64,000 nucleotides of DNA from Artocarpus heterophyllus (lineage: Eukaryota > Streptophyta > Magnoliopsida > Rosales > Moraceae), in the NCBI GenBank assembly GCA_025403435.1, contig CM046345.1:10048235-10112234 (forward strand). Direction: 5' to 3'. Within the stretch, counting starts at the first letter, position 1. Every line of letters begins with the position of its first letter. Both the position numbers and the translations under genes were made by a program. Under the pieces are notes generated by a model that saw only the letters and a list, made by a program, of their open reading frames with translations, was not told where the DNA came from and made no database searches. Below are positions 3,586 through 46,163 of this stretch, one piece after another.

Positions 3586-5235
3586 AAGGTTTTTACATAA
3601 ATTTGCAAGTTTGTGATCATGTTATATGCATAAATTTTGTGATCTTAGTCTCTCCTATGCTTGAATTGAATTTTATAGAGAGATGGCACTCTAGGTTTCT
3701 ATATAATATATAAATGTTGTCATGGATTATGTGGTGAATATTTATTAATTAATTATGGTTGATTAAATTGTTGTTTAATTATTTATTAATTAATTAATAC
3801 CGGTTATGGTTCCTTAGAGGTTAGAATGTGTATCTAGGTCTTTCATGTAATTAGATGGCGGACTATCATCTCCGTCTAGGCATTGTTATTTAATTTTTAA
3901 TTTGTAAGAATTTTGTAATTAAATAATTATTCAGAGAAGACAGAACGAGAAGTCGGATCTTAAAGATTGATGATGGCGCCTCCAGGTATTTCCTGAGTCT
4001 CTAATTTTATGTTTTTGAATTGTTGAAAATAAAATTGATGAATTGCATTAAAATTGTATTTTCTGGATTAAGGTTTCTTCTGCTCGGTCGGCATGCTGGA
4101 CCTCACAGTTCGGCAGGCCGAAGGTCACAAATCGGCAGGCCGGACGTACGGTCCGGCAAGCCGACAGTGGGGCAGAAATTTTGGTGCTCTGCCGGCAGGC
4201 CGAACCTTCATGTTCGGCAGGCCGAACCACCATGATCGGCAGACCGATCATCCAGATCGGACTGCCGACCGAGAGCTGCCAGGTGTCTAGAAAAGGTACA
4301 ATTTTTTCAATGCAGTTTTAATTTTATTTTTGGGACATTTCTGAGAAACATAAAATTTGGATAAGACCGGAAATATGAAGTGTTCGATTCATGCGGGATT
4401 GAGGACTTGAAGATGGATATTACATGAAGAAGGATACAGCTTGAGGATTCAAGGATGAAGAATCGATAAATGTCTCGATTATTCTCTTGTAATCTTAGTT
4501 TTCTATTCTCTAGGGTGGAACCATAATATTACGGTTATTATTATTATGCTTGTAGCTTTGCTTGATTGCTTTGCTTGTCTGCATTATAATATGATTTACC
4601 ATGTATATTGATAACATGCCATATAGAATAGGGAGTGCCGCTCATATTAAAATTGTTCATGCATAATTTTAAAATAAAACCTTGACTTCAAAAGATTGAG
4701 TGGGAGAAGGTTTTCGAAGAGAGAACCTAAGGCCTCCATCGTTGGTCCATAGGAAGAACATGATGGTCCTGACCCCTAGGAAGGGATTTCTATCATGTAC
4801 CAGATTGGATCTCTGAAAGGATAAGGTATTTTAGTATGATTTATGGTTGCACACCCCTAGGTGCTGATTATAAATCGTGGATAAAATATTAAAACGGTGG
4901 TTATACACTCACGTTAATTTTATTATTAACCTCCCCTAGGAGCTCTGTTAATAAAATTAATGGCTAAAGAAACAATTATTAGTATATGCTGGATCATACG
5001 GGTCCTGGATGGCATATATTAATCAGGAAGGGATCCGTGTTCAGATTGAATTTGGCATGACTCCCCTAGGAGCTTGTTGAATTCTGAGTTGGGAATTATC
5101 GTTGTAAGGTTGTGATATTTTCAAGGTTTTGACACATAAACACATTTGTATAATTTTACATGATTGTGTTATCTTACTAAATTATTATATATGTTTGCTT
5201 ATGTTTGGTATATGATTCTTTATTGTAGATTGAAA
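3586..5235 (+). other. Untranslated leader of the copia element with GC word array and hairpin array
   Basis: About 1.65 kb separates the primer-binding site from gag and contains no gene. Two ordered structures stand out. At about 4084-4275, roughly eight copies of a TCGGCAGGCCGA-like near-palindrome occur every 20-28 bp. At 4757-5092 there are five successive stem-loops, four of them holding CCCCTAGG near the apex (4773, 4854, 4933, 5063). A pyrimidine-rich TTTATTGTAG just before the gag ATG looks like a splice acceptor, so part of the leader could be an intron. Confidence 0.7.
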
Positions 5236-8200
5236 ATGTCTAAAAACGCTTTATCATCGATACTTGACAAAAACCAATTAACCGGTGAGAACTATAATGA
5301 TTGGAAACGGAACCTGGACATCGTCCTTTCCTTTGAGAAACTGAAATATGTACTGACAACTCCTTGTCCTCCCGAGCCTACGGGAGACTCAAGTAATGAG
5401 CAATTCCAAGCGTACGATTGCTGGAAAGATGCTAATGATCAGGCCCGCTGCTATGTTATGGCTAGCATGAACAATGTGCTGCAGGCTCAACATCAGGATT
5501 ATGAGACTGCGAAGCAGATCTTGGATAATCTTGAGGACATGTTTGGAGGCCAAGCCATAACAAAGCGGCAAGGGGCGCTTCGGAAACTCTTAAACTGTAG
5601 ACAGAGACCGGGGACATCTGTAAAGGAGCATATGATGTTGGTCATGGGTTACCTCGCTGAGGCTCAAACCAATGGAGCCGACATCGATGCTGAAACTCAG
5701 ATGACTATGGTCTTTGAGACTCTGTCTAAGGAATTTATTCCGTTTAGAGCTACTTTTAATTTAAGCAATAGACGGGATATGACCTTAACAGAACTGATGA
5801 AACAGTTACAGGAGTTTGAACTGCTGATCAGGGAGTCTCCTGCTGGTGGAGAGGCCAATATGGTAGCTGCTTCTGGTTCCAATCCTAACTCTGGGAATGG
5901 AAAGAAGCAACGGGCCAAGAGTGGCAAGTCTTCTATTCCTGTTGCTACCAAGAGCAAGAAGAAGAAGAAGAAGAACCCAAAGAAGCTTAAGTGCTTCTTC
6001 TGTGGTAAGGTCGGGCATATAAAGAAGCATTGCAAGGACTTCCTTTCCAAGGGAGGTAGGTGTGATCTTCTATATTTAGAAACTTGTTTGGTTGAGGAAT
6101 CCAGTGACATTTGGGTCATAGATTCTGGTGCAACTAATCATGTTTGTGTTTCTCTGCAGGGATTCAAAGAAACGAGAAGTCTACTTCGTGAAGACTTAAC
6201 GCTTCGGATGGGCGATGGATCCTTGGTCTCAGCGGAAGCAGTGGGAGATGTCCATCTTTATTTTGATAATTATAGGAGTTTAATTTTGCGAGACTGTTTT
6301 TATGTTCCTAAATTTAAAAGGAATTTAATTTTTGTATCTTCTTTATTTAAAGACTCCTACGTGGTATCTTTTAATGAAAAAGTGGTGATTCGTAAAAACA
6401 AATCTTTTATCTGTTCTGGATGGATGCAAAATAATCTATATTTTATCAAACCTAAGATGGACTTATTGCTTAATGCTGAGATAAATGATAATGACTCAAA
6501 AAGACTTAAAACTTCTCACTCTAATAAGACTTATCTTTGGCATTTGCGCCTTGGCCATATTAACCTAAATAGGATTCAAAGGTTGGTAAGGGATGGACCT
6601 TTAAGTCACTTAAAGGTGGAATCTATACCTCAATGTGAGTCTTGTTTGGAGGGTAAAATGACCAAAAGACCATACGGGTCTAAGGGCAATAGGGCCGAAG
6701 GGGTTCTAGAACTAGTGCATAGTGATGTTTGCGGACCGATGAACATCCAGGCACGAGGAGGGTATGAGTACTTCGTCACTTTTATTGACGATTACTCAAG
6801 ATATAGGTATGTGTACCTAATGCACCACAAAAGCAAAACTTATGATAAGTTCAAGGAGTTTCGGGCTGAAGTGGAAAAGCAATTGGGTAGACCCATAAAG
6901 GCACTTCGATCTGATCGAGGTGGGGAATACCTTTCTGATGAGTTCTTGGGACACTTGTTAGAGAATGGGATTTTATCCCATTTGACTACGCCGGGCACTC
7001 CGCAGCAGAATGGTGTAGCGGAGAGAAGGAATAGGACTTTGTTGGACATGATTCGGTCCATGATGAGTTATTCATCATTGCCTTTATCCTTTTGGGGACA
7101 TGCACTACAAACCGCATGTTATCTTTTGAACAATGTGCCTTCAAAATCGGTCCCTAAAACTCCTCACGAGTTGTGGACAAGACGGAAGACATCATTAAAC
7201 CATATTCGCATATGGGGATGTCCAGCTCATGTCCTGTTTAAGGATCCGAATAAGTTGGAAGCACGTTCAGAAGTTTGCGTGTTTGTAGGATATCCAAAAG
7301 GGACTAAAGGGGGTTATTTTTATAACCCAAAGGAAAATAAAGTCGTGGTTTCAACTAATGCAACTTTCCTTGAGGAGAGTTACATGAACGACTTTAAACC
7401 TCGAAGCAAAGTGGTGCTTGAGGAGTTAAGGGGTGATCCGTTTACTCCAGAGGTTCCGAATGAAACTATTCTGATCAGTGTAGAAAAACCAAACAAACCT
7501 GAACAACAACGTTAGGGGCTTCGGCGTAGTGGGAGGATCGGGCGTCAACCTGAGAGGTATATGTTCAATGGGGAGGTCTTTTTGGCTGAACCGGATGAAC
7601 ATGACAGGGATCCTTATACTTACGCAGAAGCTATGGAGGATGTTGATTCAAGACTCTGGACAGAAGCCATGAACATAGAGATGAGGTCTATCGAGACTAA
7701 TCAGGTCTGGGAGCTTGTGGATCTTCCCGAAGGGGTAAAACCCATAGGGTGTAAGTGGATCTACAAGAGGAAAAGAGGAGTGGATGGAAAGGTCGAAACC
7801 TTTAAGGCTAGACTGGTAGCTAAGGGTTATACGCAAAAGGAAGGAATCGATTATGAGGAAACCTTTTCGCCTGTAGCCATGCTTAAGTCCATCCGGATTC
7901 TCTTGTCCATAGCTGCCGCTCTCGACTACGAGATTTGGCAGATGGATGTCAAGACGGCTTTTCTGAATGGCTATCTTGATGAGTCCATTTATATGGAACA
8001 ACCAGACGGGTTCAAGGTCGCGGGTCAAGAGGGTAAGGTTTGTAAGCTGCTAAAGTCAATTTATGGACTTAAGCAGGCTTCTCATTCTTGGAACATAAGA
8101 TTTAATCAAGTGATCAAGACTTATGGGTTCTCACAAAATGTGGATGAACCATGTGTTTACAAACACATTAAGAATAGGAAGGTGGTTTTTCTACTACTCT

Positions 8201-9165
8201 ATGTAGATGACATTCTGCTAATTGGCAATGACGTTGGGGCATTGTCATCGGTCAAATTATGGTTGACCAAGCAGTTTGACATGAAGGAATTAGGTGAGGC
8301 TAATTTTGTTCTCGGTATCCAGATCTTTCGAGATAGGAAGAACAAAATGATAGCTTTGTCACAGGCCGGCTACATAGATAAAATTCTCAGGAGGTTTGCA
8401 ATGCAGGATTCCAAGAAAGGTGGGCAACCATCTAGGTCTGGAATTACTCTTTCTAAGAAAGACTCTCCAAAGTCTTATGAAGAAAGAGAATACATGAAGA
8501 AGGTACCTTATGCTTCTGTAGTGGGTAGTCTCATGTATGCCATGCTTTGCACTCGACCGGATATTAGCTATGCGGTTGGGATTGTGAGTCGATTTCAGGC
8601 GGATCCAGGACCGAACCATTGGGTTGCGGTAAAGCATATTTTCAAGTACCTGAGAAGGACTCGAGGGTATATGCTTGTGTATTCGGGTGAGGATTTAACT
8701 CCTCTAGGATACACTGATTCAGATTTTCAATCCTGCCTAGATTCTAGGAAATCGACTTCGGGGTTTGTGTTTACTCTAGGTGGCGGTGCCATCAGTTGGA
8801 GAAGTGCGAAGTAAGATTGCACTTCAGATTCAACGATGGAGGCCGAGTATGTGGCGGCTAGTGATGCTTCGAAAGAAGCAGTGTGGCTCCGCAAGTTCCT
8901 TGGGGATCTTGAGGTAGTTCCTGGTATGGATAAGGCGGTATCACTGTACTGTGATAACAGTGCGGCGGTAGCTAATGCTAAGGAACCAAGATTTCACAAG
9001 AAGAGTAAACATATTGATCGGAAGTATCATGTGATAAAGGACTTCGTTGAGAGCGGGCATGTCACGGTGTGCAAGATCGCGTCAGAGGACAATTTAGCTG
9101 ATCCATTTACGAAGACACTTACTGGGAGAGTCTTCGAGAGGCATGTGGAAGCTATGGGGATGTAA
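5236..9165 (+). pseudogene. Copia gag-pol polyprotein with two in-frame stops
   Basis: A single frame runs from ATG 5236 to TAA 9163-9165 (1309 codons) with internal stops at 7513-7515 (TAG) and 8812-8814 (TAA) and no frameshift. Gag has a UBN2-like N-terminus, a lysine-rich stretch and a CCHC knuckle ([14 protein letters not shown], near 5990). The protease motif is IDSGATNH near 6118. The GAG-pre-integrase HLRLGH region is near 6540. The integrase core has [14 protein letters not shown] and [12 protein letters not shown] (6720-7040). The reverse transcriptase carries [11 protein letters not shown] and YVDDILL (near 8200). RNase H lies at 8710-9150. The first stop falls in the linker between integrase and reverse transcriptase, the second in RNase H. 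Product, if any: a truncated gag-protease-integrase. ATG 5236 was chosen because the conserved gag N-terminus starts there. Confidence 0.93.
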
Positions 9166-9203: not shown

Positions 9204-9856
9204 TGTTAGACATGTATGCTCTAAGGAGTAAAAATATAATACGTTTTTGGAGATATTTTTATCAATAAAGAATTTATTCATTTATATATACCAAATATTG
9301 TCCTCTTTACGTTCATATTTGTTGAATGTATGATAAGCAAACAGTAGTCTGAGACTGTCAGTCTAAACCTTAAGAATTGGGCATATGATGGGATGATTAT
9401 GCGGAAGACACAATTCTTAGGGTGACGGTCTAAAACATATGATCCGCAATCGAGGGAATGAAGTTGGGCGCTTTATTCATGTAAAGATTGTTATGTTGTC
9501 TTTATCCCTTTTGGGAGATGGTTTGTCTTGACCATCGGAGTTGGACTCCATGAATAGAAACATTGGCACGTTGTCATAGGTGACGATGTGTTGGATCGGG
9601 ACATAAAGTGAATTGATTTGGATTAATAATTATGTCTTGGCAAATCGATTCACTTTAGACAATCATTTGTATTGTATCTTAATCCTGAGATGAATAATAG
9701 GCTCGTTGTCTCGACTTGTGTCTTTTGATGTACCAATGGGTGACTCCCACATCTCTATAGTGGCATGCATGCCGGTACGTTGGCATGACTCTTGATAGCG
9801 TAGACTTGTTATTCATAGATATGGAATCCATAGCTCCTCTTTAGGAGTAATGATAT
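9204..9856 (+). repeat. 3' LTR of the outer copia element, first part
   Basis: This matches 1537-2193 of the 5' LTR with scattered substitutions and a 4-bp deletion (GGAG lost near 9783). It is cut at GATAT (9852-9856), the target site of the nested element, and resumes at 18052. Confidence 0.92.
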
Positions 9857-11821
9857 TGTGACACCCGTTATTCTCCTAACGGGTATTGAGGTAATTAAAT
9901 TAATTTTTAATGTATAAAAAAAAAATTGCTTCATTTAAATTTATTTTATAATATTTATTTTTATCTATTTTTAAATTTTCTAAAATTCTCCTATATTTAA
10001 TTAGTATGATTACTAAAAAGCCTTAGACCTTCTAATAAATCTCAAAAATGTCATATTGGCATTATGTGTGTTAAAGTCTTTAGATGAGACATAAGGATAT
10101 CTTTTGCAACTACTCTTGACCCTCATTTTCTTTATTTCCTTCGTGACATGCTGAAGCATGTCTCCTCTATAATTGTTTCTATCACTTCTCTTCAAAGACT
10201 TCATCTTTTCTTCCTTTCTCTTCCACGGTTCCCACACTCTTCTTCTCATTTCTTTGCTGAAGCAAAATACTTAGAGAACTTCTTCAAGGCAGCCATAAAA
10301 ATCAGCCACCATCACCTCCATTTGAGCAAGAATTTCAGTCATACCGAACTAAAGGAACCTGTTTTGAAGCCATTTCAAGCTTCCAACTAACCATAATCCG
10401 AGGTTAGAATCTTATGAACAAATTTAGTCTTTCATTTATAAATTTTCTTTTATACTAAAGGATTATTCAAATTTGCGTTCTTAAACCTAAGTATATGTTT
10501 GTTGCTATTTTGGAGCATATGTATGAAGTCTAAGTGTATATGCCCTAGACAGAAAATTTATATTGTTAAACTTTATAATACCTCTATGGGCAGTGGTTAT
10601 TTCTTGAAATTCTAAGATTAAATTAAAATAAATTTTATGAATGTAGTTGTATGTTGTGCTTTAGTTTTAATTGTCCTTATGCACGCCTTAGGATCAAGGG
10701 AGTATGGAGCTAACGTTAACTGATTCCAGGATTAAAAGATTGTTGATAAGCTTGAAAGGTAGGGATTCTATTACTCATTTTTGTGAGGTTTTTATAGAAT
10801 TAAAATTGATTGTTTTGCCGCAATATATATATATCTATGTTGAACTGATATTATATGAGTATCACATATGAAACTATGACATGGACTCGTCTTGTATTGT
10901 ACGGCGAGGAACATAATGAATTGACATATGTTATAAATTGAGAAGCATGGTTAGGAAAACTGACTCTATTAATAATGATTTAATATAGAGAAATGATGAG
11001 ACATGAAGAGGGCGGCGGTTACGTCCTTGGGCATGAATACCCAAAAAGGTAAAATAGGGGGAAGGTGATGACGCTTCCTTGGGTTGAAAGTCCCAGAACA
11101 CACTGTACAGGAATTGATTTGGTGAGGACTCGGGGCTTGATGTCCCCTCACCGGAACACCCTTGGAATGTTTATAGGGTGATCAAGTGCGCCCATTTGGG
11201 TTTCGATGAGTTGAGTGATACTCAATTTAACATGGATACCTAGGAACAATGATGATTGGTAATATTTGTATAAATGTGTAATTATGACACTTGGTAATGA
11301 TTAACTACGGTATCCATAAGATGTGATCATAATAAACCTCATAATCTGAAATATGATGTGACTTACTAACCATGCAGATTTTAATGTGGTAATGATAGAG
11401 GTGAGTAATGGCTTTCTCTACTGAGCATAGTGTCGCTCATTCCCTTATGTTTATATCTTTTAGGACTCACTAAGTGTGAGGTGGCTACGAGAAATATAGT
11501 TGAGGAAGCGATGTAACTATATTACATTGGGACTGCTCAATTGTAAAGAATGTTCTTCATGATAATGTAAGCATCAATTGTTACTTTCTGTGACTGTAAT
11601 TATAATGTGTTGAGGGTTAAAATGATGATGACAACAGTTTATATTATTAAATTTAAGGTGCTACATTAAAACTGTGGTTTATTTGTCGTTTATATTTTTA
11701 TTTTTGAGTTGAGAGTTTTCATTTAAGTCCCGGGCAAATTTTATTTTTAAGGTTTTACTTTTATTATTTATTTTTATTTTATCTCATTAAAAACTGTTAA
11801 CCCCCATATAGGGGCGTTACA
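9857..11821 (+). repeat. 5' LTR of the non-autonomous element
   Basis: 1965 bp, TG...CA. The downstream portion (from about 10690) is nearly the same as the downstream portion of the solo LTR at 59545-60673. A block of it (about 10530-11390) matches the Tekay LTRs, while the upstream 0.8 kb is different in each. I could not place a TATA box with confidence. Confidence 0.93.
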
Positions 11822-11828
11822 GAATTTT

Positions 11829-11840
11829 TGGTATCAGAGC
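11829..11840 (+). other. Primer-binding site of the non-autonomous element
   Basis: TGGTATCAGAGC, seven bases after the LTR end, is the canonical plant initiator-tRNA-Met primer-binding sequence. Confidence 0.88.
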
Positions 11841-13312
11841 CTAGGTTCGGTTAACCTAGGGAGTGTAGCACCACTTTAAAAAAATATATTTTTGAGATGG
11901 TTTTGAAGCTGAATTTTCATTGTCATCATCAAAATGAACCTTCACATTGATTTATACAGTCTAGAAGGATGTAACATGGAAAGGCCATAGAATGAAAATA
12001 TCAATAGTTATATGAGTACAATAATTATATAGAAGGAAAGTATTAATAGTTATAAGGGAATGATAATTATATGGAATGAGTTTATAAGTAGAATGCTTAT
12101 GAGAGATTCGTATAATATTTGGATCTATAAGCATATCTAATTCGTATAAACGATGAGAAATTCGTATAGATAAGAGGATTTAAAAGTCTTTTGTCTCGTG
12201 AAAAACAATAAGAAATATAAGGCTTGATTTATTGATTTTAAAGTTTGACATAGATATGCCAATTTTTTTTTCGTAATTGATTCAAACCTAAGTAATGATT
12301 ATGTGTGGATTCGATGGAGCACATAAGTGTCAATAACTTTTCTTGAAAGTTCTATTTATTTGAGGAATATGATATAAGTTGGGAATCATGGTATTGAATC
12401 TTGAGAGAGATAAATGTTAGACTTTTGGTCTGTTGAGACTGTGTCAAGTCTAGAATGCATGAATCTCAAAATTGGAATATTTCGTTACGTACATTGTATT
12501 TAAGTGTATCAGTGAATCTTTTGGTTACCTAAGGTTTTGTTATATGAGGAAATTATATATTGTATGAGTAGAATTGTGGGGATTGTAGATGTTCTTAAGT
12601 AGTAACATCTAGTGTCTTTGTTCATTGATATGATCTACGTTGAAAGACGTAAATCGTATTGATTTCAAGGTTAGTCACATTCTAAACCCTTGGTAGTAAT
12701 GATGATGAATCCATTGATAGATGTTGAGTATTATCAATAACATATGGGTGTATGTATTGTTCAATAAGGTTTTGATTAAAACAAAATTATTTGAGTTGCT
12801 GGAAGATTGTGTTGTTATGAAATGATTTTAAATATCATTCAGGAAGATCCTTGTTGTCGTTAAATTAGATTTGTTGTTTATAGTTAACTTTATCTATAGT
12901 GGGCTTTGAATTGGGTTTAAGATTCATACGAATTGGTTTTCAATTTTATGTTTGTTATTTAACTCGTTCTAAATGTGTTAAGGCCGAAACAACCTGACCA
13001 TTTTCAACTAAGAACATTTGGGCCTAGTTTAAATCTTAAATCAGTTTGATTCACACTGTCTCTCCCACGTGGTCTCTATACGTGTCATATACAGTGGTTT
13101 AATCATTGTTTACATATACGTTTACTGTGCATAAGAGTTTATTTCTCCGAGTTCACTTTTTCTCTCTTAATTTGTTATTTTCTCTCTAAATCGCAAATCC
13201 TCTTCTTTTGCATTATAAATTCTTCTTTTCCTCTAAAAGAAGAAGGAATTCTAGGATTCTGCAATTTACTATCTTAATTTTTCCTTTCTATTTACTCTTC
13301 TTTCATCTCATC
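11841..13312 (+). other. Untranslated interior of the non-autonomous element upstream of its first ORF
   Basis: 1.5 kb of AT-rich DNA with no credible frame. Its last 300 bp changes character to pyrimidine-rich DNA with TATAAAT at 13214-13220, about 90 bp before the first ATG. CGTGTCATATACAGT at 13081-13095 recurs in similar form upstream of the second ORF. This could be a captured promoter and 5' UTR, but the sequence alone does not prove it. Confidence 0.45.
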
Positions 13313-13834
13313 ATGGACCCAAAGTACCAACATCTGAGAAAGTATTTCCCATCACTCTCCCAAAAGATTCTCAAAAAGAAATATAAGGCTAGAATTACTC
13401 GGTTGTGGATTCTTATGCGTTTTGGCATCCCTTGTGATGTGAGAATGTTGATAGAGGGGAAAATCCGTCCGAGTGACTTTAGTCAAGATGTCGGTTTACC
13501 AGGAACAGGTACCAGTCGTAGTGCAATGAAAAGAAGAGCTCGTGCCATCGTGGTCACTTGTAACAAATGTGGAAGACAAAATTGTAACGGTAAATGTACT
13601 TCACCTGGTTATATGTCTACGACTAGAGAGGATAAAATAAGGTTTTGTAAGAATGGACTTTCAAAGGAGAACTTGGATAGTATCCATCCTCCTCTCCACG
13701 GTCACCCTAGTGGATATGTTCAAGGAGCTATTTTTAAACTTTGGCCTAAATTTTATACAGAAAGACAACGCCTTAGGAATATGGTATTTCTAGATCCTGT
13801 TTGCCAAGCCATAAGAAAACTGGATGGGGAATAA
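13313..13834 (+). CDS. Cysteine-rich basic protein, resembling plant RNA-virus nucleic-acid-binding proteins (tentative)
   Basis: 173 aa from ATG 13313. The frame is open further upstream, but without an earlier ATG. The N-terminus is Lys-rich. It is followed by a short hydrophobic segment (LWILMRFGIPCDVRMLI, 31-47), a Gly/Ser patch (GLPGTGTSRS), a basic run (MKRRARA, 72-78), then a CX2CX4CX3C cluster (Cys83, 86, 91, 95) and PGY. This order (hydrophobic segment, GTG-Ser-basic run, four-Cys cluster, PG) is what I know from the Carla_C4 family of betaflexivirids, small RNA-binding proteins that can suppress silencing. It is not a CCHC gag knuckle. The last 70 residues have no counterpart I recognise. 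The frame is undamaged. Homology is inferred from layout only; a host zinc-binding protein is the alternative. Confidence 0.5.
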   Translation: MDPKYQHLRKYFPSLSQKILKKKYKARITRLWILMRFGIPCDVRMLIEGKIRPSDFSQDVGLPGTGTSRSAMKRRARAIVVTCNKCGRQNCNGKCTSPGYMSTTREDKIRFCKNGLSKENLDSIHPPLHGHPSGYVQGAIFKLWPKFYTERQRLRNMVFLDPVCQAIRKLDGE

Positions 13835-14477
13835 GTCATCACTCTATAAAGGTTATTTAGTCTTTACTTATTTGAAGCAGTTTTAGCTGATGTTCAACAG
13901 TTTGTGTTTTTCTTTTACTCAGAATATTTGCTTTTGTGTTTGAAATAATTGTGATTATTAGATTGATACAGTAAGTGTTAATATCTTATTTAATTTATGA
14001 TTTTCTTAAATATATATATAATAAAATATATTATCTTATCAGACACGTCACATACAGTACAGTAATATGTTTGAATTTTGAAAAGCTTATCCAGATATTT
14101 CAAGATTTGTGTCTCAAATTTCAAAAGTTCTACAGTATTTGTCGTTTATATTAAATTTCTAGACTTGGTGTATATTTGTCAAAAAGTCTACAGTTGTGTC
14201 AAGAGGGTCTTTTGTCAAATTGTTCTCAATTGTCAAAAGTTATACAATTAGAGTCTAATCTTTTTCAAAAAGTGAATCAGATTTTCTGTAAACTATCAAT
14301 CACCTTATCTTACTTTCTTATCCGCACAAGATTTTGTTTAAATCTTTGGATTACTTTTTCATTACCTACTCGTCTATCTCTTTAGCCCTTTTTGTATATT
14401 TCTCATCTTTAAAATCTCATGTAGAACCCGAAGTCTAAGTGGAGCAGACATTAGGCAACCACTTCTATAAACCAAAT
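13835..14477 (+). other. Spacer between the two cargo genes of the non-autonomous element
   Basis: AT-rich, with several TTGTCAAA/TGTCAAAAGT near-repeats at 14175-14245 and ACGTCACATACAGT at 14045-14058, similar to the motif upstream of the first ORF. No coding frame was found. It may hold the terminator of the first unit and the promoter of the second. Confidence 0.4.
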
Positions 14478-15128
14478 ATGTCTACCTCCCAGTCCACGAA
14501 GAAAATAAAGAATGTCTGTGTCTTTTGTGGTTCCAGCCTTGGAAAAGATAAAGCTTATTTAGAAGCTGCAAATCACTTAGGGCAAGTCCTAGCACGCAAG
14601 AAGATTAACATAATCTATGGGGGTGGTAGTATAAAAATGATGGTAAATATGGCACTAGCAGCTAGGTCTAGCGACGCTACTGATGTAAGAATTTGGCCTC
14701 ATATTCCAGTTGAAGGAAACCTTTGTAAGGAAGCCATAGGTAAGGGAGAAGGAGTTAGGAGTATCCCTAAAAATTTTAAAGACATAATCTATAATTCTGA
14801 TGCTTTTATAGCATTACCTGGTGGTCTAGGTACTCTTGAGGAAATATTTATAGTTGCTTGTGGGCAATTGTTGGGCTTTTATTCCAAACCTTTGGGACTG
14901 CTGAATGTAAAGGGTTTTTATGACGGTCTTTTGAAATTTCTAGATTACGCTGTGGAAGAAAACATCACTACAGAATCGGAGAGACAAATCTTTGTCACTG
15001 CTTCAACAGCTGAGGAATTGATAGATAAAATGCAAATCATACATCCAGAATCCGACACTGCAACATCCAAGCTTGAATGGGAAAGGGAAAGCCGGGAGCG
15101 GCCAATTGATTTGAATCTCCATCTGTAA
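14478..15128 (+). CDS. LOG-like cytokinin riboside 5'-monophosphate phosphoribohydrolase, intronless, inside a retroelement
   Basis: 216 aa from ATG 14478, the normal length for plant LONELY GUY enzymes, which release active free-base cytokinin from its riboside 5'-monophosphate. Family marks, in order: CVFCGSS (14-20), IIYGGGSI (46-52), SDAFIALPGGLGTLEE (107-122, the PGGxGTxxE phosphate-binding/catalytic signature), KPLGLLNVKGFYDGLL (137-152) and a normal C-terminal helix region. Unusual points: the GLMG after GGGSI is replaced by KMMV, and the Arg-Lys pair usually about a dozen residues before SDAF is absent (KNFKDIIY here). The protein ends in DLNLHL, an LxLxL pattern. Host LOG genes contain several introns; this one has none, so it is probably a retrocopy. 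Activity is uncertain because a catalytic Arg appears lost. Confidence 0.85.
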   Translation: MSTSQSTKKIKNVCVFCGSSLGKDKAYLEAANHLGQVLARKKINIIYGGGSIKMMVNMALAARSSDATDVRIWPHIPVEGNLCKEAIGKGEGVRSIPKNFKDIIYNSDAFIALPGGLGTLEEIFIVACGQLLGFYSKPLGLLNVKGFYDGLLKFLDYAVEENITTESERQIFVTASTAEELIDKMQIIHPESDTATSKLEWERESRERPIDLNLHL

Positions 15129-16042
15129 TCTTTTTGTTTTATCTTTGGCATGTAGGCATGTGTGTCCGTATTTCGTGTGTTACGAATAACCGTTTGCCTT
15201 GTATTCTGTGTTTCTTGTGGTACGTCGTTGTTCAATCTTTTAGATTCATTGAGCCTAATGCCGGGATGGTTGGATACGGAGTACTTGATGCTCTCGAAAC
15301 GCATCCTTCTTAAGGTCCGATCTTTTGTTTATCGATGTTTTTGTATCCTATAAGCATGCATGATATGGATAGCTGGTATACGGAGTGCCTTGTACTCTCG
15401 AAACGTATCCGTATTATGTTTGTAATGTGTAATATTCTGTTAATATTATGTGGAAGTACCAGAGTCAGTTATGGGGATATTCCATATGAAATATGAATAT
15501 ATTATTTGGGTTGAATGTTTGTGTCATGAGGATAGCTGTTTAATGAAAAATATGTCGGGTTTGTCTGCAACTCTGAGATTCTGTTTAATATCTCTATGAG
15601 TAAGTTTAATGTATAGTTTTGAATAAAAGTGTTTGTGATATATGTTTTATGATTATGTTCTAGTTTATTAGTTGAGGTATGAAATCAAATATATTTGACT
15701 TTTCTTTACTCAAAAAGGAAAAGGAACCTAAAGATGAAGTATATAAAATTTCTCTGGCAATCTCCTTAAATGTGATTGTAAATCACAGTCCATGGACAAT
15801 GAAGGACTGGAATCATGATATGGTCAATATGTATGCCTGATCAAATTCTTAGACTATTATACGGTGTTATAAGTTGAAACTTGTCAGAAATACTCTCATT
15901 GAGGGATTTAGGAGTAAGATTTATTATGCAAGTAAATAAGTGGAGATACGATGACTTAAATTGGAGGACAAACAACATTAACGGTTTAGACTCGAAATTG
16001 AATCATAATGGAATCAAAATTTTTACTAGTATTGCTAGAATT
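15129..16042 (+). other. 3' non-coding interior of the non-autonomous element with a hairpin-forming direct repeat
   Basis: Two copies of a roughly 35-bp sequence lie at 15272-15306 and 15375-15410. Each begins GGATACGGAG or GTATACGGAG and ends CTCGAAACG(C/T)ATCC, so each copy can also fold on itself (GGATACG with CGTATCC). The rest is AT-rich without a gene. Confidence 0.55.
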
Positions 16043-16081
16043 GAAATTTCGAGGACGAAATTTCTTTAAGGGGGGTAGAGC
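16043..16081 (+). other. Conserved hairpin and polypurine tract of the non-autonomous element
   Basis: GAAATTTCG, an AGGA loop and CGAAATTTC form a perfect 9-bp stem at 16043-16064. It is followed by AAGGGGGGTAGAGC up to the 3' LTR start. The same hairpin precedes the polypurine tract of the Tekay-type element at 38202-38222. Confidence 0.85.
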
Positions 16082-18046
16082 TGTGACACCCGTTATTCTC
16101 CTAACGGGTATTGAGGTAATTAAATTAATTTTTAGTGTATAAAAAAAAATTGCTTCATTTAAATTTATTTTATAATATTTATTTTTATCTATTTTTAAAT
16201 TTTCTAAAATTCTCCTATATTTATTTAGTATGATTACTAAAAAGCCTTAGACCTTCTAATAAATCTCAAAAATGTCATATTGGCATTATGTGTGTTAAAG
16301 TCTTTAGATGAGACATAAGGATATCTTTTGCAACTACTCTTGACCCTCATTTTCTTTATTTCCTTCGTGACATGCTGAAGCATGTCTCCTCTATAATTGT
16401 TTCTATCACTTCTCTTCAAAGACTTCATCTTTTCTTCCTTTCTCTTCCACGGTTCCCACACTCTTCTTCTCATTTCTTTGCTGAAGCAAAATACTTAGAG
16501 AACTTCTTCAAGGCAGCCATAAAAATCAGCCACCATCACCTCCATTTGAGCAAGAATTTCAGTCATACCGAACTAAAGGAACCTGTTTTGAAGCCATTTC
16601 AAGCTTCCAACTAACCATAATCCGAGGTTAGAATCTTATGAACAAATTTAGTCTTTCATTTATAAATTTTCTTTTATACTAAAGGATTATTCAAATTTGC
16701 GTTCTTAAACCTAAGTATATGTTTGTTGCTATTTTGGAGCATATGTATGAAGTCTAAGTGTATATGCCCTAGACAGAAAATTTATATTGTTAAACTTTAT
16801 AATACCTCTATGGGCAGTGGTTATTTCTTGAAATTCTAAGATTAAATTAAAATAAATTTTATGAATGTAGTTGTATGTTGTGCTTTAGTTTTAATTGTCC
16901 TTATGCACGCCTTAGGATCAAGGGAGTATGGAGCTAACGTTAACTGATTCCAGGATTAAAAGATTGTTGATAAGCTTGAAAGGTAGGGATTCTATTACTC
17001 ATTTTTGTGAGGTTTTTATAGAATTAAAATTGATTGTTTTGCCGCAATATATATATATCTATGTTGAACTGATATTATATGAGTATCACATATGAAACTA
17101 TGACATGGACTCGTCTTGTATTGTACGGCGAGGAACATAATGAATTGACATATGTTATAAATTGAGAAGCATGGTTAGGAAAACTGACTCTATTAATAAT
17201 GATTTAATATAGAGAAATGATGAGACATGAAGAGGGCGGCGGTTACGTCCTTGGGCATGAATACCCAAAAAGGTAAAATAGGGGGAAGGTGATGACGCTT
17301 CCTTGGGTTGAAAGTCCCAGAACACACTGTACAGGAATTGATTTGGTGAGGACTCGGGGCTTGATGTCCCCTCACCGGAACACCCTTGGAATGTTTATAG
17401 GGTGATCAAGTGCGCCCATTTGGGTTTCGATGAGTTGAGTGATACTCAATTTAACATGGATACCTAGGAACAATGATGATTGGTAATATTTGTATAAATG
17501 TGTAATTATGACACTTGGTAATGATTAACTACGGTATCCATAAGATGTGATCATAATAAACCTCATAATCTGAAATATGATGTGACTTACTAACCATGCA
17601 GATTTTAATGTGGTAATGATAGAGGTGAGTAATGGCTTTCTCTACTGAGCATAGTGTCGCTCATTCCCTTATGTTTATATCTTTTCAGGACTCACTAAGT
17701 GTGAGGTGGCTACGAGAAATATAGTTGAGGAAGCGATGTAACTATATTACATTGGGACTGCTCAATTGTAAAGAATGTTCTTCATGATAATGTAAGCATC
17801 AATTGTTACTTTCTGTGACTGTAATTATAATGTGTTGAGGGTTAAAATGATGATGACAACAGTTTATATTATTAAATTTAAGGTGCTACATTAAAACTGT
17901 GGTTTATTTGTCGTTTATATTTTTATTTTTGAGTTGAGAGTTTTCATTTAAGTCCCGGGCAAATTTTATTTTTAAGGTTTTACTTTTATTATTTATTTTT
18001 ATTTTATCTCATTAAAAACTGTTAACCCCCATATAGGGGCGTTACA
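16082..18046 (+). repeat. 3' LTR of the non-autonomous element
   Basis: 1965 bp, the same length as the 5' LTR. By eye it differs by one A-run length, AATGTAT/AGTGTAT, TTTAATTA/TTTATTTA and one C insertion near 17686. Confidence 0.93.
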
Positions 18047-18051
18047 GATAT

Positions 18052-30830: not shown

Positions 30831-33635
30831 TGTAACACCCGTATTTTTAACGGGCATGATTTTGTAAAATTTAATGAATAAAATGTGACTATTTAAAATT
30901 ACTAAGTCGTTTACGATCATTAAAAAAAAAATACCACTTTAGTATTTTCTTACCAAGTCTTCCTAAGAAACATTCAAAATTTACCAACACTTCTACCAAT
31001 CTTGTCTCCCTAAATTATTGCTCAATTATATAGCCTTCTTCTTATTTTGCTAAAGGTATCCGAAGGGGACATTGAATTATTTTCCCTCAATTCATAAAAG
31101 ACATGGAGATATTTTCTCAACCACCTCTTTAATTATTTCCTTATCTTCTTCTATAATTCACTCCAATTGTCCCCTCAATTATGTTAGCATGATTTGCTAA
31201 AAATCTTCATGGGAGACAAGATGATATTTTCCTTTAAGACTCTTTTGTTTCTTCTTACAACTTTCCCCCGTAAACATCCCATTCCTCTTAAGCATTTTGA
31301 TATCTTTTTATTTAACTATCACCACCTTCTTCTCTAGTTCTCATTCTCTCCCTTTCTCACTTCAAATTTCTAACTAAAGACATAGAGCACAAAGCTCTCT
31401 TTGTGGCCAAGACAATTATAATTCCCAACCATGATCGAGGCGGTTTTAGAGTTAATTCAAGCTTGATTGTTAACCCGAACTTTGGTGCTTTTCAAAGAAG
31501 TTTTGAGGTAGGTTTTCTTTAATCTAAACTTAGTTTTTAGTATGTATTTTCTCCATGTTTAATGCATAATTTTCGTGTTCAAAATTCATGCAAATTTCTA
31601 GTTAAGTTAACATGCATCCTTAAACATTTATGAACAAAAACTTGAGTCTTGAGTTACAACCCACAACCAACTTTTATTTTGGTTTGATGACAATGTTAGA
31701 AACATGTTAGGAATGTTTAAAACCGGTTTCCATAACTTTAAGATTGATGTTCTAATGTTTTGAGCTTAAAGAGCAAATTTAAGCATGTTTTCATCATTAT
31801 TTACAAGAAAGGCTAGAGATATAATTTGATAATGATTTTGGTATAAAACTCATGAGAATATGTTTATTCTGATTATATAATGCATGTTGCATATTTTGGA
31901 ATGGTTTTGAGATTTTAAACAAGGATAATATGCTTTAAGTTAAAGAAAAATTTGACATCCCATAAACTTTATAATACCTCTATGGGCAGTGGCTATTTCT
32001 TAAAATTCTGGAGTTAAATGAAAATGAATTTTGTAAATTGGTTTGCATATTTAAAAAGTAGACATCCTAAGCTTTCCAATGAGCTATCATGACCCTAAAT
32101 CGGAGTTGTATTTTAATTTCTATGAATTTTTCAATTTTCGGATTAGAAACTAGTAAACCTGCCAGTGGTAATAAACCACCCGTCTATCTTAAGTAAACCA
32201 CCTGTTAACCCGTGTGTTAATTGTAGATAGTGAACCCGCCTTTTTACAAAAGTATACCACCAAGTTGCCATGGTATACTAGCTGTTAACTTGAACCAAAA
32301 ACCCAATTTTGCTCACCTTCTAGTCTCTTAATGTCTTACAACCTTTCCAATACTACCCTAAATGATTTATGAATTCTTATTAGAGACTAAAACATAAAAA
32401 TTGCTTGTATGTATTTTATATTGCGTTTAAGATAAAAATTGTTTACTTGGTATTTAAAGAACAATTGCATAAAAATACTTTAATGGCACTAGTAGACGGG
32501 TTTACACATAATTCACTTATGAATGTGATTATACGTTGTGCTTTAGTTTTAATTGTCCTTATGCATGCCTTAGGGTCAAGGATGTGTGGAGCTAACGTTG
32601 ATTAATTCCGAGAATAAAAGTTTGTTGTTAAGCTTTGAAGGTAGGGATTCTATTACTCATCTTTTGTGAGGTTTTGGTAAATTAAATTTGATTGTTTTAT
32701 ATTGTAAAATATGTATATTGTATAGCGATAAATATAATGATTTGACATATGTTATAAATTGAGAAGCATGGTTAGGAAATTGACTCTATAAATATAAATT
32801 GAATACAAAGGAATAGTGAGATGTAAAAAGGGCGACAGTTACGTCCTTGGGCACGAATACCCTAAAAGGAAAAATAGGGGGAAGGTGATGACGCTTCCTT
32901 GGGTTGAAAGTCCCAGAACGCACTGTACATGAATCGATTTGGTGAGGACTCGGGGCTTGATGTCCCCTCACCGGAACACCCTTGAAATGTTTATAGGGTG
33001 ATCAAGTACGCCCATTTGGGTTTCGATGAGTTGAGTGATACTCAATTTAACATGGATACCTAGGAACAATGATGATTGGTAATATTTGTATAAATGTGTA
33101 ATTATGACACTTGGTAATGATTAACTACGGTATCCATAAGATGTGATCATAATAAACCTCATAATCTGGAATATGATGTAACCTACTAACCATGCAGTTT
33201 TTAATGTGGTAATGGATAAACCATAAGGTGAGTCATGATTTCCCTACTGGGCATGTCGATGCTCATCCCTATTATATCTTCATATCTCAGGTGGAACTCA
33301 ATGCAACATATTTGAAGAGGAATAAGCGAAAACAATCTTGCTGTTTTCGTGTTAGAAGACTCTGTTTAATTACAACTTATCTACAACATGTAAGAGTTGT
33401 ATTATTTTTTTTATGGCTGTGTTAAGTTATTTGGGGATTGTACTATGGTGATGATGACTGTAATTATATATATTTGGTGCTACACTAAAAACTGTGGTTT
33501 GTATTTAAAACGTTTATTTTTATTTTTCTTGTTGTTTAAAGACCCATGGGCATTGTTTAATTGATTTAAATAATATAAAATTTAAAATTATTTTTATTTA
33601 TTTAAAACTGTTAACCCCCACATAGGGGTGTTACA
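30831..33635 (+). repeat. Tekay-type LTR, first copy (solo-like)
   Basis: 2805 bp, TGTAACACCC...GTTACA, with AAATC at both borders. It includes a cluster of AAACCACC-like words and the hairpin GTATACCA/TGGTATAC (32252-32259 with 32271-32278). From about 32530 to 33200 it matches the LTRs of the non-autonomous element. Confidence 0.93.
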
Positions 33636-34084
33636 AAATCCCCTAATTTTTATTTTATTTTTTTTCCTCATTCTTGCCTTTGTGTGGGATTTTGCTTCTT
33701 TTTTTTTTTTTTTAGCATGTGATTTGATGATATTTTCTTTCCCCTTCTTTTTCATCTTGAATCTTGTGTATTATGTATCTTTGTTTCATAAGTGTTTTCC
33801 TTAGTGTCAAAGAAATCTAATGAGAGCAGTTCTTCTTTTTTCTTTTTTTTTTTGTTTCATGAACATATTTTTTTAGGGAAAAATAATTTTAAAAAAGGAA
33901 GCCATCTTATTCATCAAATGAGAGCACCTTTTTGTTTTTCATAAGATAATTAAAAAGATGGAGAGTCGGAATTCTGGATATTTCTTGGTGCACAAAAAAA
34001 CCTCACATGCATATAGATTCTTCACCAAGTGAGGAAGTAAATTTCTCACATAATCTGTCTAATTGAGAATGATAAAGGTGAATC
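33636..34084 (+). repeat. Duplicated host flank, first copy
   Basis: 449 bp that appear identical to 41045-41493. It begins with the AAATC target duplication and ends abruptly at 34084, where gag coding sequence starts. Rich in poly-T, with no gene. Confidence 0.9.
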
Positions 34085-37000
34085 CCGGGGCTGTATCGGA
34101 TCCAATGGCGAGATGCGAAAAATTTAGAAATAACCTGAGGCCGAAAATCAGACAAATGATAGCTGCTGTTCCATCAACAGATTTTCTTGATCTTGTAGCT
34201 GCGGCACAGCGGGCAGAGACAGAACTAAATAACTCCTATGGAGAGTATAAGGGTTCTGGTGGGCGTCAAAGGAAAATAAGTAAGAAAGAGAAGTCACAAG
34301 GGCAAGTCATTCAGCATAGTGGAGTGACTATTGGTGGTGGATCTTCTGGTAGTGGTCGTTTCCAACCGTATGCTTGTCATAACTGTGGACAAGTGGGACA
34401 TCTGAGGAGAAATTGCCCTAACCACCCTACACAATCATCCTTTGCACCAAGGCCACAAGGAAGTCATTTTGGCTCCACTGTTTGGGGAGGGAGTCAAAAT
34501 CGTGGAGCGCCTCAGCAAAACACTCCAGCTTCCCAAGTCTCAGTAACTCAACCTCGAGGGTTCCAGCCTCAGTACAACTATCAACAGCGGCCACAGGGTT
34601 CCAATTTTTATGCTAATCAGAACTTCCAACCGACTCCACAAGGCTCAATGAATCAAAGGCCATATTTTTCTGGGAGAAATAATAATAAGGCTAGTAGTAG
34701 CCAAGGAAACCGAGGAAAAAGTGATAAAGGAAAAGCACCAGCACAAGCTTATGCAATTACGGCTACAGCTGGACAAGCAAAACAGGCTGATCACTCAGTT
34801 GTAGACGGTATGATTCACGTGTCTCATTCTTGGGCTCATGTATTATTTGACACTGGTGCCACTCATTCATTTATATCTATGTTATTTGCTTCCGTACTAC
34901 AATTAGAAACTGAGACATGTAGTTCATCATTAACCCTTAGTACACCAATGGGCGGGATAGCTGAAGTATCCATAATTTGTAAATCAGTGTGTATTGTTAT
35001 AGGAGAACATAAACTATCGGCTGACCTATATGTAATAACTATGACAGAGTTTGATGTAATCTTAGGAATGGATTGGCTAACTAAATACCAGGCAATAGTA
35101 GATTGTCATAGGAAACGTGTCTCTTTATTCACCAAGAATGGACAAGTCGTCGAATTTCAGGCAAAAACAGGAACAGTGACACCAGCCCCGGTGCTAAAGG
35201 CTTGTATTGGAGGACGAAGGAATTTCACCAATCTTGGGACGATCTTTGCTTCAAATGGAGAACTAAAGAAGAGTGACCTATCCTCTCACACTCCTGTGGT
35301 GGACGAATTTTCAGATGTTTTTCCAGATGAATTGCCCGGACTTCCGCCTAATAGAGAAATTGAGTTTGTCATCGACCTAACTCAAGGAGCAACGCCTGTT
35401 TCTATCGCTCCGTATCGAATGGCACCTGCTGAGAAAGTGGAATTGAGGAAGCAGTTGGACGAATTACTGGAAAAAGGATTTATTCGACCAAGTACATCAC
35501 CTTGGGGAGCTCCAGTACTTTTTGTGAAGAAACATGATGGATCGTTGAGGCTCTGTGTCGATTATCGCCAGCTTAATCGATTGACTATCAAGAACAAGTA
35601 CCCTCTACCCCGAATTGATGAGTTGTTCGATCAGTTAGGAGGATCTTGCTATTTCTCAAAGATTGACTTACGATCCGGATATCACCAACTGAAGATAAGA
35701 GAAGAGGACATTCCAAAGACAGCTTTTCGGACTCGCTACGGTCATTTTGAGTTTCTTGTCATGCCTTTCGGGTTGACTAATGCACCAACGGCTTTCATGG
35801 ACTTGATGAACCGTGTCTTTCGACCGTACTTAGATCAATTTATCATTGTCTTCATAGATGATATCTTGATCTATTCTAAAAACGAAGAAGAACATGCTGA
35901 GCATTTGAGGATCGCTCTACAAACGTTGAGAGAACATGGTCTTTATGCAAAAAGAGAAAAATGTGATTTCTGGATGACGAAGGTCAAGTTCCTTGGACAC
36001 GTTGTCTCTGAAGAAGGCATCTCAGTGGACCCCTCCAAAATTGAAGCAGTGCTAAATTGGGAACGACCAAAGAACGTGTCGGAGATTCGAAGTTTCCTCG
36101 GACTAGCTGGATACTATCGACGCTTCGTAGAGAATTTTTCAAAGATTGCTTCTCCATTAACAAAACTCACAAGGAAGAATGTCAAGTTCGTGTGGGATGA
36201 TAAATGTGAAGAAGCATTTGAGGAACTGAAGCAAAGACTCACTAGTGCACCTGTGCTAATCATACCTAACAACGAGGAACCTTACACAGTATACACTGAT
36301 GCCTCAGGAAACGGTTTGGGTTGTGTGTTAATGCAGCATGGACGAGTAGTTGCCTACGCCTCACGCCAATTGAAACCCCATGAGAGGAACTACCCCACAC
36401 ATGATCTTGAGTTAGCTGCTGTGGTTTTCGCACTCAAAATTTGGAGATGTTATCTATATGGCGCAAAGTTCAAGCTATATTCAGATCATCAAAGTCTGAA
36501 ATATTTGTTTACTCAAAAGGATCTCAATCTAAGGCAACGAAGATGGACTGAGTACATGGTGGACTATGACTTTAGTATCCAATATCATCCTGGAAAAGCA
36601 AATGCCATGGCAGATGCTCTAAGTCGTAAGAACAACGGACGTATAGCCAGTTTAGCATTGGAAGATTGGAGACGAGTCACCATCGCCGACTTCAACTTGC
36701 AATATTATGAAGATGACGAGAGAGCTTTCCTATTCAATGTGATAGCAACTCCTACGTTAATTCAGAAAGTAAAACAAGGACAATGGCACGATGAAGGATT
36801 ACGTAGGGTTTGGGAGCAAATACAAAATGGAGAACAACTGGATGGATGGCAGATTGAGCCAGAAGGATTTTTACTTTACAAAGGAAGATTAGTTGTTCCA
36901 GAGGATCCATATCTCAGGCATGCGGTGCTAGATGAGGCTCACCGTTCAAAGTTTGCTATTCATCCTGGAAGCACAAAAATGTATATGGATCTAAAACGAC

Positions 37001-38184
37001 AATACTGGTGGCGAGGAATGAAACGAGATGTAGCAACCTTTGTCTCTAAGTGCATGACGTGCCAACAGGTTAAAGCGGAACATCAAAAGCCTGGAGGCGA
37101 GTTGAGGAGCTTACCTATTCCAGAATGGAAGTGGGATCATGTGACAATGGACTTTGTTACTGGATTTCCTAAGACTCAAATAAGGCATGACGTCGTTTGG
37201 GTAATTGTAGATCGTTTAACTAAGACAGCCCACTTCATCCCAATCAGAACTAGTTATAGTGTCTCAAAATTATGTCAATTATACGTGGAAAAGGTAGTGA
37301 CATTGCATGGAGTGCCAATGTCAATAGTTTCCGATAGAGATACACGTTTCACGTCGAAATTTTGGAGAGGATTGCAGAGGGCCTTGGGAACTCAATTGAA
37401 TTTTAGTACAGCTTTTCATCCTCAAACAGATGGACAATCTGAACGTGTCATTCAGATTCTCGAGGATATGCTTCGGGCTTGTGTGCTGGACTTTGGAACA
37501 AATTGGGCTACACAGCTGCCATATGTTGAATTCGCATATAACAACAGTTACCAAGCAAGTATTAGAATGGCTCCATATGAGGCCTTATATGGTAGACCTT
37601 GTAGATCTCCATTGTGTTGGGCTGAAAAGGAAGAGCGTCTTGAACTTGGGCCTCAGTTTATCAGAGAAACAACGGACAAGATCCAGATTATTTGCGAACG
37701 TCTTCAGACAGTTCAAAGTCGACAAAAGAGTTATGCAGATAAGAGGAGGCGACCTTTAGAGTTCATGATTGGAGACTTTGTGTTCTTAAAAGTGAAACCA
37801 AAACGAGGTGTATCTCGATTTGGTGTTAAAGGAAAGTTAGCACCAAGGTATACAGGACCGTTTGAGATTGTGGAACGCATTGGAACGTTGGCATACCGTT
37901 TAGACCTACCACCACAATTGTCTCATGTACATAATGTGTTTCATGTATCGATGTTGAGAAAGTATGAACCCGACCCTTCACATGTGATCATGTGGACAGA
38001 TGTGCCGATTCAAGGAGATACGAATTATGAAGAAATTCCAGTTCAAATACTGGATCATGAAATAAAAATATTACGTCGTCGTGAAATTCCTCTGGTGAAA
38101 GTGATGTGGCAACACCATGATGTGGAGGAAGCCACATGGGAACTTGAATCTGAAATGAGAGAAAAGTATCCACAATTGTTTTAA
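34069..38184 (+). CDS. Truncated but open Ty3/gypsy (Tekay-type) gag-pol polyprotein with chromodomain
   Basis: Open from ATG 34069 to TAA 38182-38184 (1371 aa). The ATG and first five codons come from duplicated host flank, so the usual gag N-terminus is lost. Present in order: gag C-terminal part; CCHC knuckle [14 protein letters not shown] (from 34375); Gln/Pro-rich linker; protease [10 protein letters not shown] (near 34846); reverse transcriptase with [10 protein letters not shown] and [11 protein letters not shown] (near 35850); RNase H YTDASG (36292); integrase zinc finger HPGSTKMY...CMTCQQVK, core [10 protein letters not shown] and [14 protein letters not shown]-type region; and a C-terminal chromodomain-like segment ([18 protein letters not shown]). 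No internal stop or frameshift, so pol enzymes could still be made if transcribed. Such a copy could in principle supply pol, but not complete gag, to non-autonomous relatives. Confidence 0.93.
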
Positions 38185-38201
38185 CATTGTAATCAGTGTA
38201 A

Positions 38202-38240
38202 GAAATTTCGAGGACGAAATTTTTTATAGGAGGGGAGAGC
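38202..38240 (+). other. Conserved hairpin and polypurine tract of the Tekay-type element
   Basis: GAAATTTCG / CGAAATTT stem (38202-38222), then AGGAGGGGAGAGC directly before the LTR. The same hairpin occurs in the non-autonomous element at 16043. Confidence 0.88.
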
Positions 38241-46147: not shown

Positions 46148-46163
46148 TGGTATCAGAGACGGC

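Follow-up and report, generated by a model that had tools for sequence, protein, structure and literature searches.

Non-autonomous LTR elements are usually regarded as empty passengers, and LARDs, which have long LTRs, a primer-binding site (PBS) and a polypurine tract (PPT) and lack gag-pol, are described as non-coding. Gypsy elements with a YgdH/LOG domain are said to have been reported by Steinbauerova et al. in 2011. Alvarado-Marchena et al. 2022 (PMC9289625) document LOG (YgdH) domains in Citrus and Populus gypsy elements; these are RT-anchored consensuses, so pol-bearing, and the section on them describes neither a virus-type partner ORF nor loss of the active site. The same source presents orchid gypsy elements that likewise keep an accessory ORF, an m6A demethylase whose domain also occurs in some plant RNA viruses, but these elements are 25-kb and pol-bearing and the protein belongs to another family. 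Betaflexivirus-related sequence is also present in a cucumber chromosome, but there CsFRLS1 is replicase-related and is no mobile-element gene (PMC3136472).

The element analysed here lies in a window of 64,000 nucleotides of the Artocarpus heterophyllus genome (contig CM046345.1, 10,048,235 to 10,112,234), and all positions below are those of the window. It shares with LARDs the long LTRs, the target-site duplication, the PBS, the PPT, the lack of gag-pol and, by inference, mobilization in trans; unlike LARDs, which are by definition non-coding, it has two ORFs with N/S below neutral. Like the Citrus and Populus elements (PMC9289625) it has a LOG-domain ORF within Ty3/gypsy, but it lacks pol. 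LOG domains in gypsy elements are thus already known, but neither the virus-type partner nor the gene pair turned up in the literature searched. The searches also found nothing joining carlavirus or Carla_C4 to LTR retrotransposons, and nothing on LONELY GUY in a non-autonomous retrotransposon or on cytokinin riboside with a captured LTR element; a search for Athila with carlavirus returned a single paper, on viral proteases, and none of the terms looked for occurs in Vicient and Casacuberta 2020 (PMC7264820).

The element is full-length and recent, and occupies 9857-18046 on the forward strand. Comparison of the LTR pair delimited a 5' LTR (9857-11821) and a 3' LTR (16082-18046) of 1965 bp each, and the about four differences counted in the first-pass annotation resolved into 2 substitutions and 2 one-base indels. 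The other landmarks it listed were located as well: the GATAT target-site duplications read from the sequence at 9852-9856 and 18047-18051, the PBS TGGTATCAGAGC at 11829-11840, which we take to be the complement of initiator tRNA-Met, and the PPT AAGGGGGG at 16068-16075. Of 6 other copies, 5 have exactly the same 40 bases in the PBS region (11812-11851). A tblastn search of the interior (11822-16081) with the window's own 1373-aa gypsy frame, itself without the first part of gag, revealed no gag-pol remnant (best E = 0.17), in agreement with the earlier statement that no retroviral-type domain is present. Instead, there are two intact ATG-started frames on the forward strand, ORF1 (13313-13834, 173 aa) and ORF2 (14478-15128, 216 aa), separated by a spacer of 643 bp (13835-14477). 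Both had been noticed before, and ORF2 is indeed uninterrupted. The longest ATG frame in 500 dinucleotide shuffles of the interior was 144 aa, and none of the 500 reached 173 aa. In 200 kb of flanks no match to either ORF was found, only LTR pieces (L006, L015, L022).

A first look at the host genome gave 6120 candidates for the LOG-like protein, a count that is not a census. The 150 of these that were scored were all identical and open; for ORF1, the frame was open in 149 of 150 scored copies. Both ORFs occurred together in 6/6 copies of one sample and 20/20 of a second; in the latter the LOG frame was intact in 17, and copy L045 is listed with a stop in ORF1. Each of four further insertions checked has its own target duplications, and divergence of copies from the window reaches about 2-3% in the spacer and in ORF1. 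The element has undergone a recent burst in its own genome, the insertions checked are independent, and copies apparently number in the thousands. The proposal of a non-autonomous, multi-copy element is supported. In the copies examined we saw none of the three outcomes named as contrary to it, namely frames in this copy alone, ordinary gag-pol at this place in other family members, or dN/dS near 1.

Intact frames alone prove little, because the LTR pairs and the copies are nearly identical. With the spacer as the neutral yardstick, N/S of the shared variants was 0.14-0.15 of neutral for both ORFs in the samples of 6 and 20 copies, which were hand-picked, non-randomly, from lists in which the similarity of the adjacent ORF set the order. 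In each ORF most of the shared changes were synonymous (p = 0.0007 and 0.004); the window served as the reference for scoring, and some of the changes counted as shared therefore arose in the window itself. Taken by themselves, variants seen in one copy were not significant (p = 0.15 and 0.07). Purifying selection thus acts on both ORFs in the sampled copies, in line with the full-length cargo kept by selection that the first-pass annotation had put up for checking. Selection on accessory genes in a non-autonomous element implies a benefit that acts in cis or at the level of the cell.

ORF1 contains a basic KRRAR motif followed by C-x2-C-x4-C-x3-C, and the four cysteines are kept in 114, 122, 123 and 121 of 125 relatives. 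The window protein scores below the Pfam cut-offs (15.9 vs 23 and 13.4 vs 20.9), and 98 of the 126 aligned family members match the Pfam profile at E<=1e-3. In a fold search against a viral library, viral NABPs occupied ranks 1-17 (best E 0.019, so that none attained E 0.001; TM by query 0.24-0.42), and all 15 named high-probability matches were plant-virus proteins in a library of viral proteins only. Mean pLDDT was below 70 in 4 of 5 structure models, and the search against the PDB returned four chance-level rows and nothing else. ORF1 is a member of the Carla_C4/Viral_NABP family, the NABP/CRP proteins known from flexuous plant RNA viruses, and it resembles the betaflexivirus and carlavirus CRPs (NABP; PF01623/PF05515) in the basic motif and Cys4 finger as well as through the profile matches of its family members and the best-ranked fold matches. 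It differs in being encoded by a retrotransposon and in its size of 173-182 aa, compared to 62-225 aa in the viral matches of ranks 1-17. The earlier suggestion of a partner gene holds as to an intact frame beside the LOG-like one, but missed this kinship. NABP/CRP proteins are defined by a basic motif and then a Cys4 finger (C-x2-C-x9-C-x4-C in PVH), and carlavirus CRPs differ in function: those of PVH and PVM suppress silencing, and CVB p12 is a transcription factor that showed no suppression when assayed locally (PMC3689765). By analogy, ORF1 may have an anti-silencing role.

ORF2 has the LOG fold, the PGGLGTLEE signature reported in the first-pass annotation and intact Glu121 and Glu122. 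However, position 99 is Asn, opposite the Arg of AtLOG3 in the alignment, in the window and in all 150 scored copies. Arg99 was proposed to be catalytic in the C. glutamicum LOG, in which replacing such residues by alanine left almost no activity, and the adenine-site residues Met96 and Lys100 named in that source (PMC4979012) are Ile and Phe in ORF2. Further changes are G53K, G66D and W129G, and in total 23 of the 80 columns conserved at >=90% are altered, compared to a median of 2.5 among the relatives and a next-highest value of 15. The enzyme activity may therefore have been lost, and ORF2, judged from its residues, is probably not a cytokinin enzyme, against the earlier label of a hormone-metabolism gene. 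The C-terminus reads LNLHL, and an LxLxL tail occurs in 87 of the 120 alignment rows. We take LxLxL to be an EAR motif of TOPLESS-type co-repressor recruitment, short motifs of this kind being weak evidence, and ORF2 might act as a co-repressor recruiter. The idea that a host LOG transcript was captured recently, as first proposed, was rejected because ORF2 shares no more than 49% identity with any of the 119 other relatives listed and stands apart from the LOG1-like host rows, which split off by a 0.8 branch with support of 100/100. The ORF2 branch is 1.24 long in this unrooted tree of 38 of the 120 rows, hand-chosen and without a host LOG of this species, in which the exact place of ORF2 is unsure. 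IMG/VR viral contigs contained no relatives of ORF1 or ORF2; one phage LOG match (L002) was unrelated.

The LTRs carry segments 70-90% identical to the window's gypsy element at 30832-41044, and the 39 nt of the PPT region (16043-16081) match that element's 3' internal end (38202-38240) at 87%. From its 3' motifs we assume that the gypsy element is Tekay, and these matches suggest a Tekay-type helper. The presumed helper had no Pfam match to a chromodomain, and the same negative result for L001 is thus uninformative. L001 (3330 bp) contains a gypsy integrase frame and, 204 bp downstream, an intact NABP-type ORF. Its integrase frame shares just 23% of residues with the gypsy polyprotein of the window and so belongs to another gypsy lineage, presumably of the Athila type. 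No LOG ORF was found in L001, and a LOG search of the 600-kb genome holding it gave 0 matches.

We consider it rather probable that the element derives from Ty3/gypsy, is non-autonomous and has Tekay-type LTRs and two selected accessory genes, a CRP-family ORF1 and a regulatory LOG-fold ORF2, and that its movement would depend on gag-pol supplied in trans. ORF1 would most likely suppress RNA silencing of element transcripts or activate transcription. Since the catalytic Arg is lost and the PGGxGTxxE loop and the C-terminal LxLxL are kept, ORF2 would most likely be a regulator, either a nucleotide sensor or a TOPLESS-type co-repressor recruiter, and probably derives from a LOG gene acquired long ago by gypsy elements. 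It is unlikely that ORF2 is a working cytokinin-activating enzyme, in which case every insertion would be a mobile LOG gene and would aid transmission of the element by stimulating cell division or meristem activity. The fold, the signature with both glutamates and the selected frame would suit it, and 112 of 119 relatives retain Arg99, so that relatives elsewhere may well be enzymes; the residue changes of ORF2 listed above, from Arg99 to the 23 altered columns, speak against it. Even less credit is due to functionless cargo, captured sequences multiplied in a burst from one intact source. The near identity of LTR pairs and copies and the insignificant single-copy variants fit such cargo, but the shared changes are mostly synonymous despite 2-3% divergence, ORF1 differs from the L001 NABP by an NG86 dN of 0.47 and a dS of 2.96 (near saturation), and related proteins of both ORFs exist in several named plant genera.

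On the origin of the two genes, a somewhat less than even chance is given to transfer of the ORF pair, as one cassette, onto Tekay-type LTRs from a different gypsy lineage (Athila type, accessory ORFs behind pol), which would make the element a chimera of two retrotransposon lineages. It competes on origin alone and is compatible with the preferred explanation. The position of the L001 NABP-type ORF and the LOG domains in Citrus and Populus gypsy elements (PMC9289625) favor this origin, but L001 is of presumed Athila type and shows no LOG ORF. The LOG relative P0065 and the NABP relative P0149 also have the same longest contig of 8723 nt, an agreement that could be coincidence. More doubtful is the view that ORF1 began independently as a zinc-finger protein of the host or of a transposon and that viruses took theirs from it, or that both converged. 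Its 855 relatives at E<=0.01 have plant genomes among the named sources, and the 173-182-aa form exceeds most viral matches in length; the 15 named fold matches, all from plant viruses, point the other way, though within a viral library.

The preferred reading of a derivative with two selected genes would make this a mobile element that fights with borrowed weapons, a virus-related gene of anti-silencing type and a LOG relative without the catalytic residue. Its fullest form is tentative: a counter-defence kit of an RNA-virus-derived silencing suppressor and a former hormone enzyme turned co-repressor-recruiting regulator, both selected, might circulate among eudicot retrotransposon lineages, here in a gag-pol-less parasite with apparently thousands of copies. 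The element would be a parasite of a parasite with selected accessory genes, and a gene family common to plant RNA viruses, some of which use it against silencing, and retrotransposons would make transposon-encoded silencing suppression directly testable. Some annotated plant LOG genes, such as the Populus proteins named LOGL10, may also be transposon genes.

The element at 9857-18046 is a complete LTR retrotransposon, with two LTRs of 1965 bp each that differ by two substitutions and two one-base indels, a GATAT target-site duplication, a primer site (TGGTATCAGAGC) and a purine tract, or PPT (AAGGGGGG). Its internal region of 4260 bp holds two ATG-started frames, ORF1 (13313-13834, 173 codons) and the LOG-like ORF2 (14478-15128, 216 codons); in 500 dinucleotide shuffles of this region the longest frame had 144 codons and none reached 173. 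The gypsy frame of the window did not match the internal region (best E 0.17). The first-pass annotation, which described LTRs about four differences apart, these terminal signals, two intact frames and no retroviral-type domain inside, was thus correct on all these points.

It had also inferred that the element is spreading a full-length cargo, and had named multiple copies with dN/dS well below 1 as the sign of cargo kept by selection; the copies sampled agree with this. In the 985-Mb host genome, where the window lies at G000:C19:10048235-10112234, the LOG-like protein query gave 6120 and the ORF1 query 5815 first-look candidates, which are no census. All 150 scored LOG-like matches were open and 100% identical over 216 residues, and lay on contigs C1-C10; the 150 scored ORF1 matches were 98-100% identical, 149 of them without a stop. 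Six copies, hand-picked from the LOG list, all carried ORF1, the spacer (13835-14477) and LOG in identical order. The primer site and PPT/LTR junction were present in five of the six, with the same spacing in four; in the fifth, the primer site lay closer by about 475 bp, and in the remaining copy (L027) neither was found within the stretch fetched. Ends were examined in four of the six, and each of these had its own 5-bp duplication, and their LTR pairs showed 0-5 mismatches and 0-3 gap columns. There were two LTR length classes among the copies, about 1.97 and 2.36-2.40 kb.

Because picking on the tested ORF was to be avoided, the six LOG-selected copies served for scoring ORF1, and 20 copies hand-picked from the 150 ORF1 matches served for scoring LOG; these 26 copies came from lists ranked by similarity of the linked ORF. 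Summed over the copies, ORF1 had 45 synonymous and 26 nonsynonymous differences from the window (109 and 410 sites; pN/pS 0.154), and LOG had 61 and 30 (143 and 505 sites; pN/pS 0.14). The neutral expectation was derived from the spacer's own mutation spectrum, with 59 variants over 643 bp in the 26 copies, and each variant was counted once. N/S was 0.22 of neutral for ORF1 (p 0.0005) and 0.35 for LOG (p 0.002) over all variants. It was 0.14 (p 0.0007) and 0.15 (p 0.004) for variants in at least two copies, some of which are changes of the window's own lineage, as with six ORF1 variants found in all six copies. Single-copy variants gave 0.39 (p 0.15) and 0.49 (p 0.07), which were not significant. 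We read this pattern of variants as selection in the replicating lineage and decay after insertion. The LOG frame was intact in 17 of the 20 copies; L042 and L045 had a one-base insertion, L045 being also the copy listed with an ORF1 stop, and the alignment of L044 lacked 201 bases. Since the element has no gag-pol, selection on its cargo implies a benefit to the copies that encode it, either by action in cis or via the cell where they are active.

ORF1 is best read as a relative of the NABP/CRP proteins of plant viruses. Its direct Pfam matches were under the cut-off; 15 relatives were found in a first search and 855 in a profile search (E<=0.01), and the 120 listed of these included proteins of Xanthoceras, Populus, Acer, Rhamnella, Hibiscus and Orobanche. 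Among 126 aligned family members, 98 matched Viral_NABP and 98 matched Carla_C4 (E<=1e-3). The AlphaFold model had a mean pLDDT of 82.6 and a pTM of 0.65 (the other four models, pLDDT 65-70), and in a fold search ranks 1-17 were all plant flexuous-virus proteins, with probability 0.57-1.00 but E of at least 0.019; 14 of the 15 named among them are an NABP, an RNA-binding protein or an RNA silencing suppressor. The basic stretch and four cysteines fit the CRP description in the available text of PMC3689765. According to that text, the CRP of PVH suppresses local silencing and PVM is cited as similar, whereas CVB p12 is cited as a transcription factor without local suppression. A tree was built from L001 and 36 of the 126 members (37 rows); in it, the window's ORF1 grouped with P0001, P0002 and P0003 (100/99), separate from the other 33.

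L001 (DAIEQH010000041.1, 3330 bp) was the one stretch encoding an ORF1 relative among 137 candidates in prokaryote assemblies. Although recorded under a 'Candidatus Nomurabacteria' MAG, this contig resembles retrotransposon DNA of a plant, and the NABP that it encodes is the same protein as P0139. A gypsy integrase frame (104-1594) is followed, 204 bp further on, by an intact 182-aa NABP ORF (1799-2347), and therefore the ORF1 family is also found downstream of pol, in a gypsy element that carries pol. This integrase frame and the gypsy frame of the window share 23% identity, hence a different gypsy lineage, which by its look may be Athila. The NABP shares 89 of 172 residues with ORF1 (NG86 dN 0.47; dS 2.96, near saturation).

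LOG (YgdH) domains have already been published for gypsy consensuses of Citrus and Populus (PMC9289625, in the available text, citing Steinbauerova 2011). Neither a carlavirus-type NABP encoded by a retrotransposon nor this pairing of NABP and LOG genes came up in our literature searches. We suggest that a helper would supply gag-pol in trans, that ORF1 may act on RNA silencing or on transcription, and that ORF2, with Asn in place of the proposed catalytic Arg99, might be a non-catalytic LOG-fold regulator. The mobile LOG locus of the first-pass annotation would hold only if catalysis can still proceed at the altered site. Three Populus proteins named LOGL10 (P0022, P0031 and P0054) are LxLxL-tailed relatives of ORF2; some annotated plant LOGs, these among them, may be transposon genes.

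Judging from shared sequence, the likely source of the trans-acting proteins is the kind of gypsy element found at 30832-41044, which has an open 1373-aa frame with zinc knuckle, protease, RT, RNase H and integrase (Pfam). The LTR of the element at 9857-18046 resembles that of this gypsy element in four pieces, which cover about 1040 of its 1965 bp at 70-90% identity, and the last 39 internal bases of the gypsy element are matched at 87%. From its 3' motifs we presume the gypsy element to be Tekay; Pfam gave no chromodomain match in it, and this copy lacks the start of gag. Its 5' LTR runs not into a primer site but into a stretch of about 450 bp (33636-34084) that repeats the element's 3' flank (41045-41493) without a difference, which points to a rearranged copy or an assembly effect.

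Elsewhere in the genome, five LOG copies lie in a single orientation 6.62-6.66 kb apart at G000:C9:16537152-16564376, and ORF1 pairs are 6.19-6.63 kb apart on C15, C20, C28, C207 and C285; these are probably tandem LTR-sharing arrays. Opposite-strand LOG pairs at G000:C5:21324967-21333479 and 21452647-21461169 (spacing 7865 and 7875 bp, 128 kb apart) are probably a segmental duplication. A solo LTR of the element's family at 58283-60673 (2391 bp, duplication ATTTA, 97% over LTR 836-1965) belongs to the longer class. The window's flanks hold a 98% LTR copy (L015:7456-9328) and a more distant LTR of a sister family (L006:8584-9661, 71%). Two elements with long open gag-pol pieces, presumably copia-like, lie at 5164-9165 and 46041-49851, and a PPR-type host gene, which we take to be PTAC2-like, at 54612-56594 on the minus strand.
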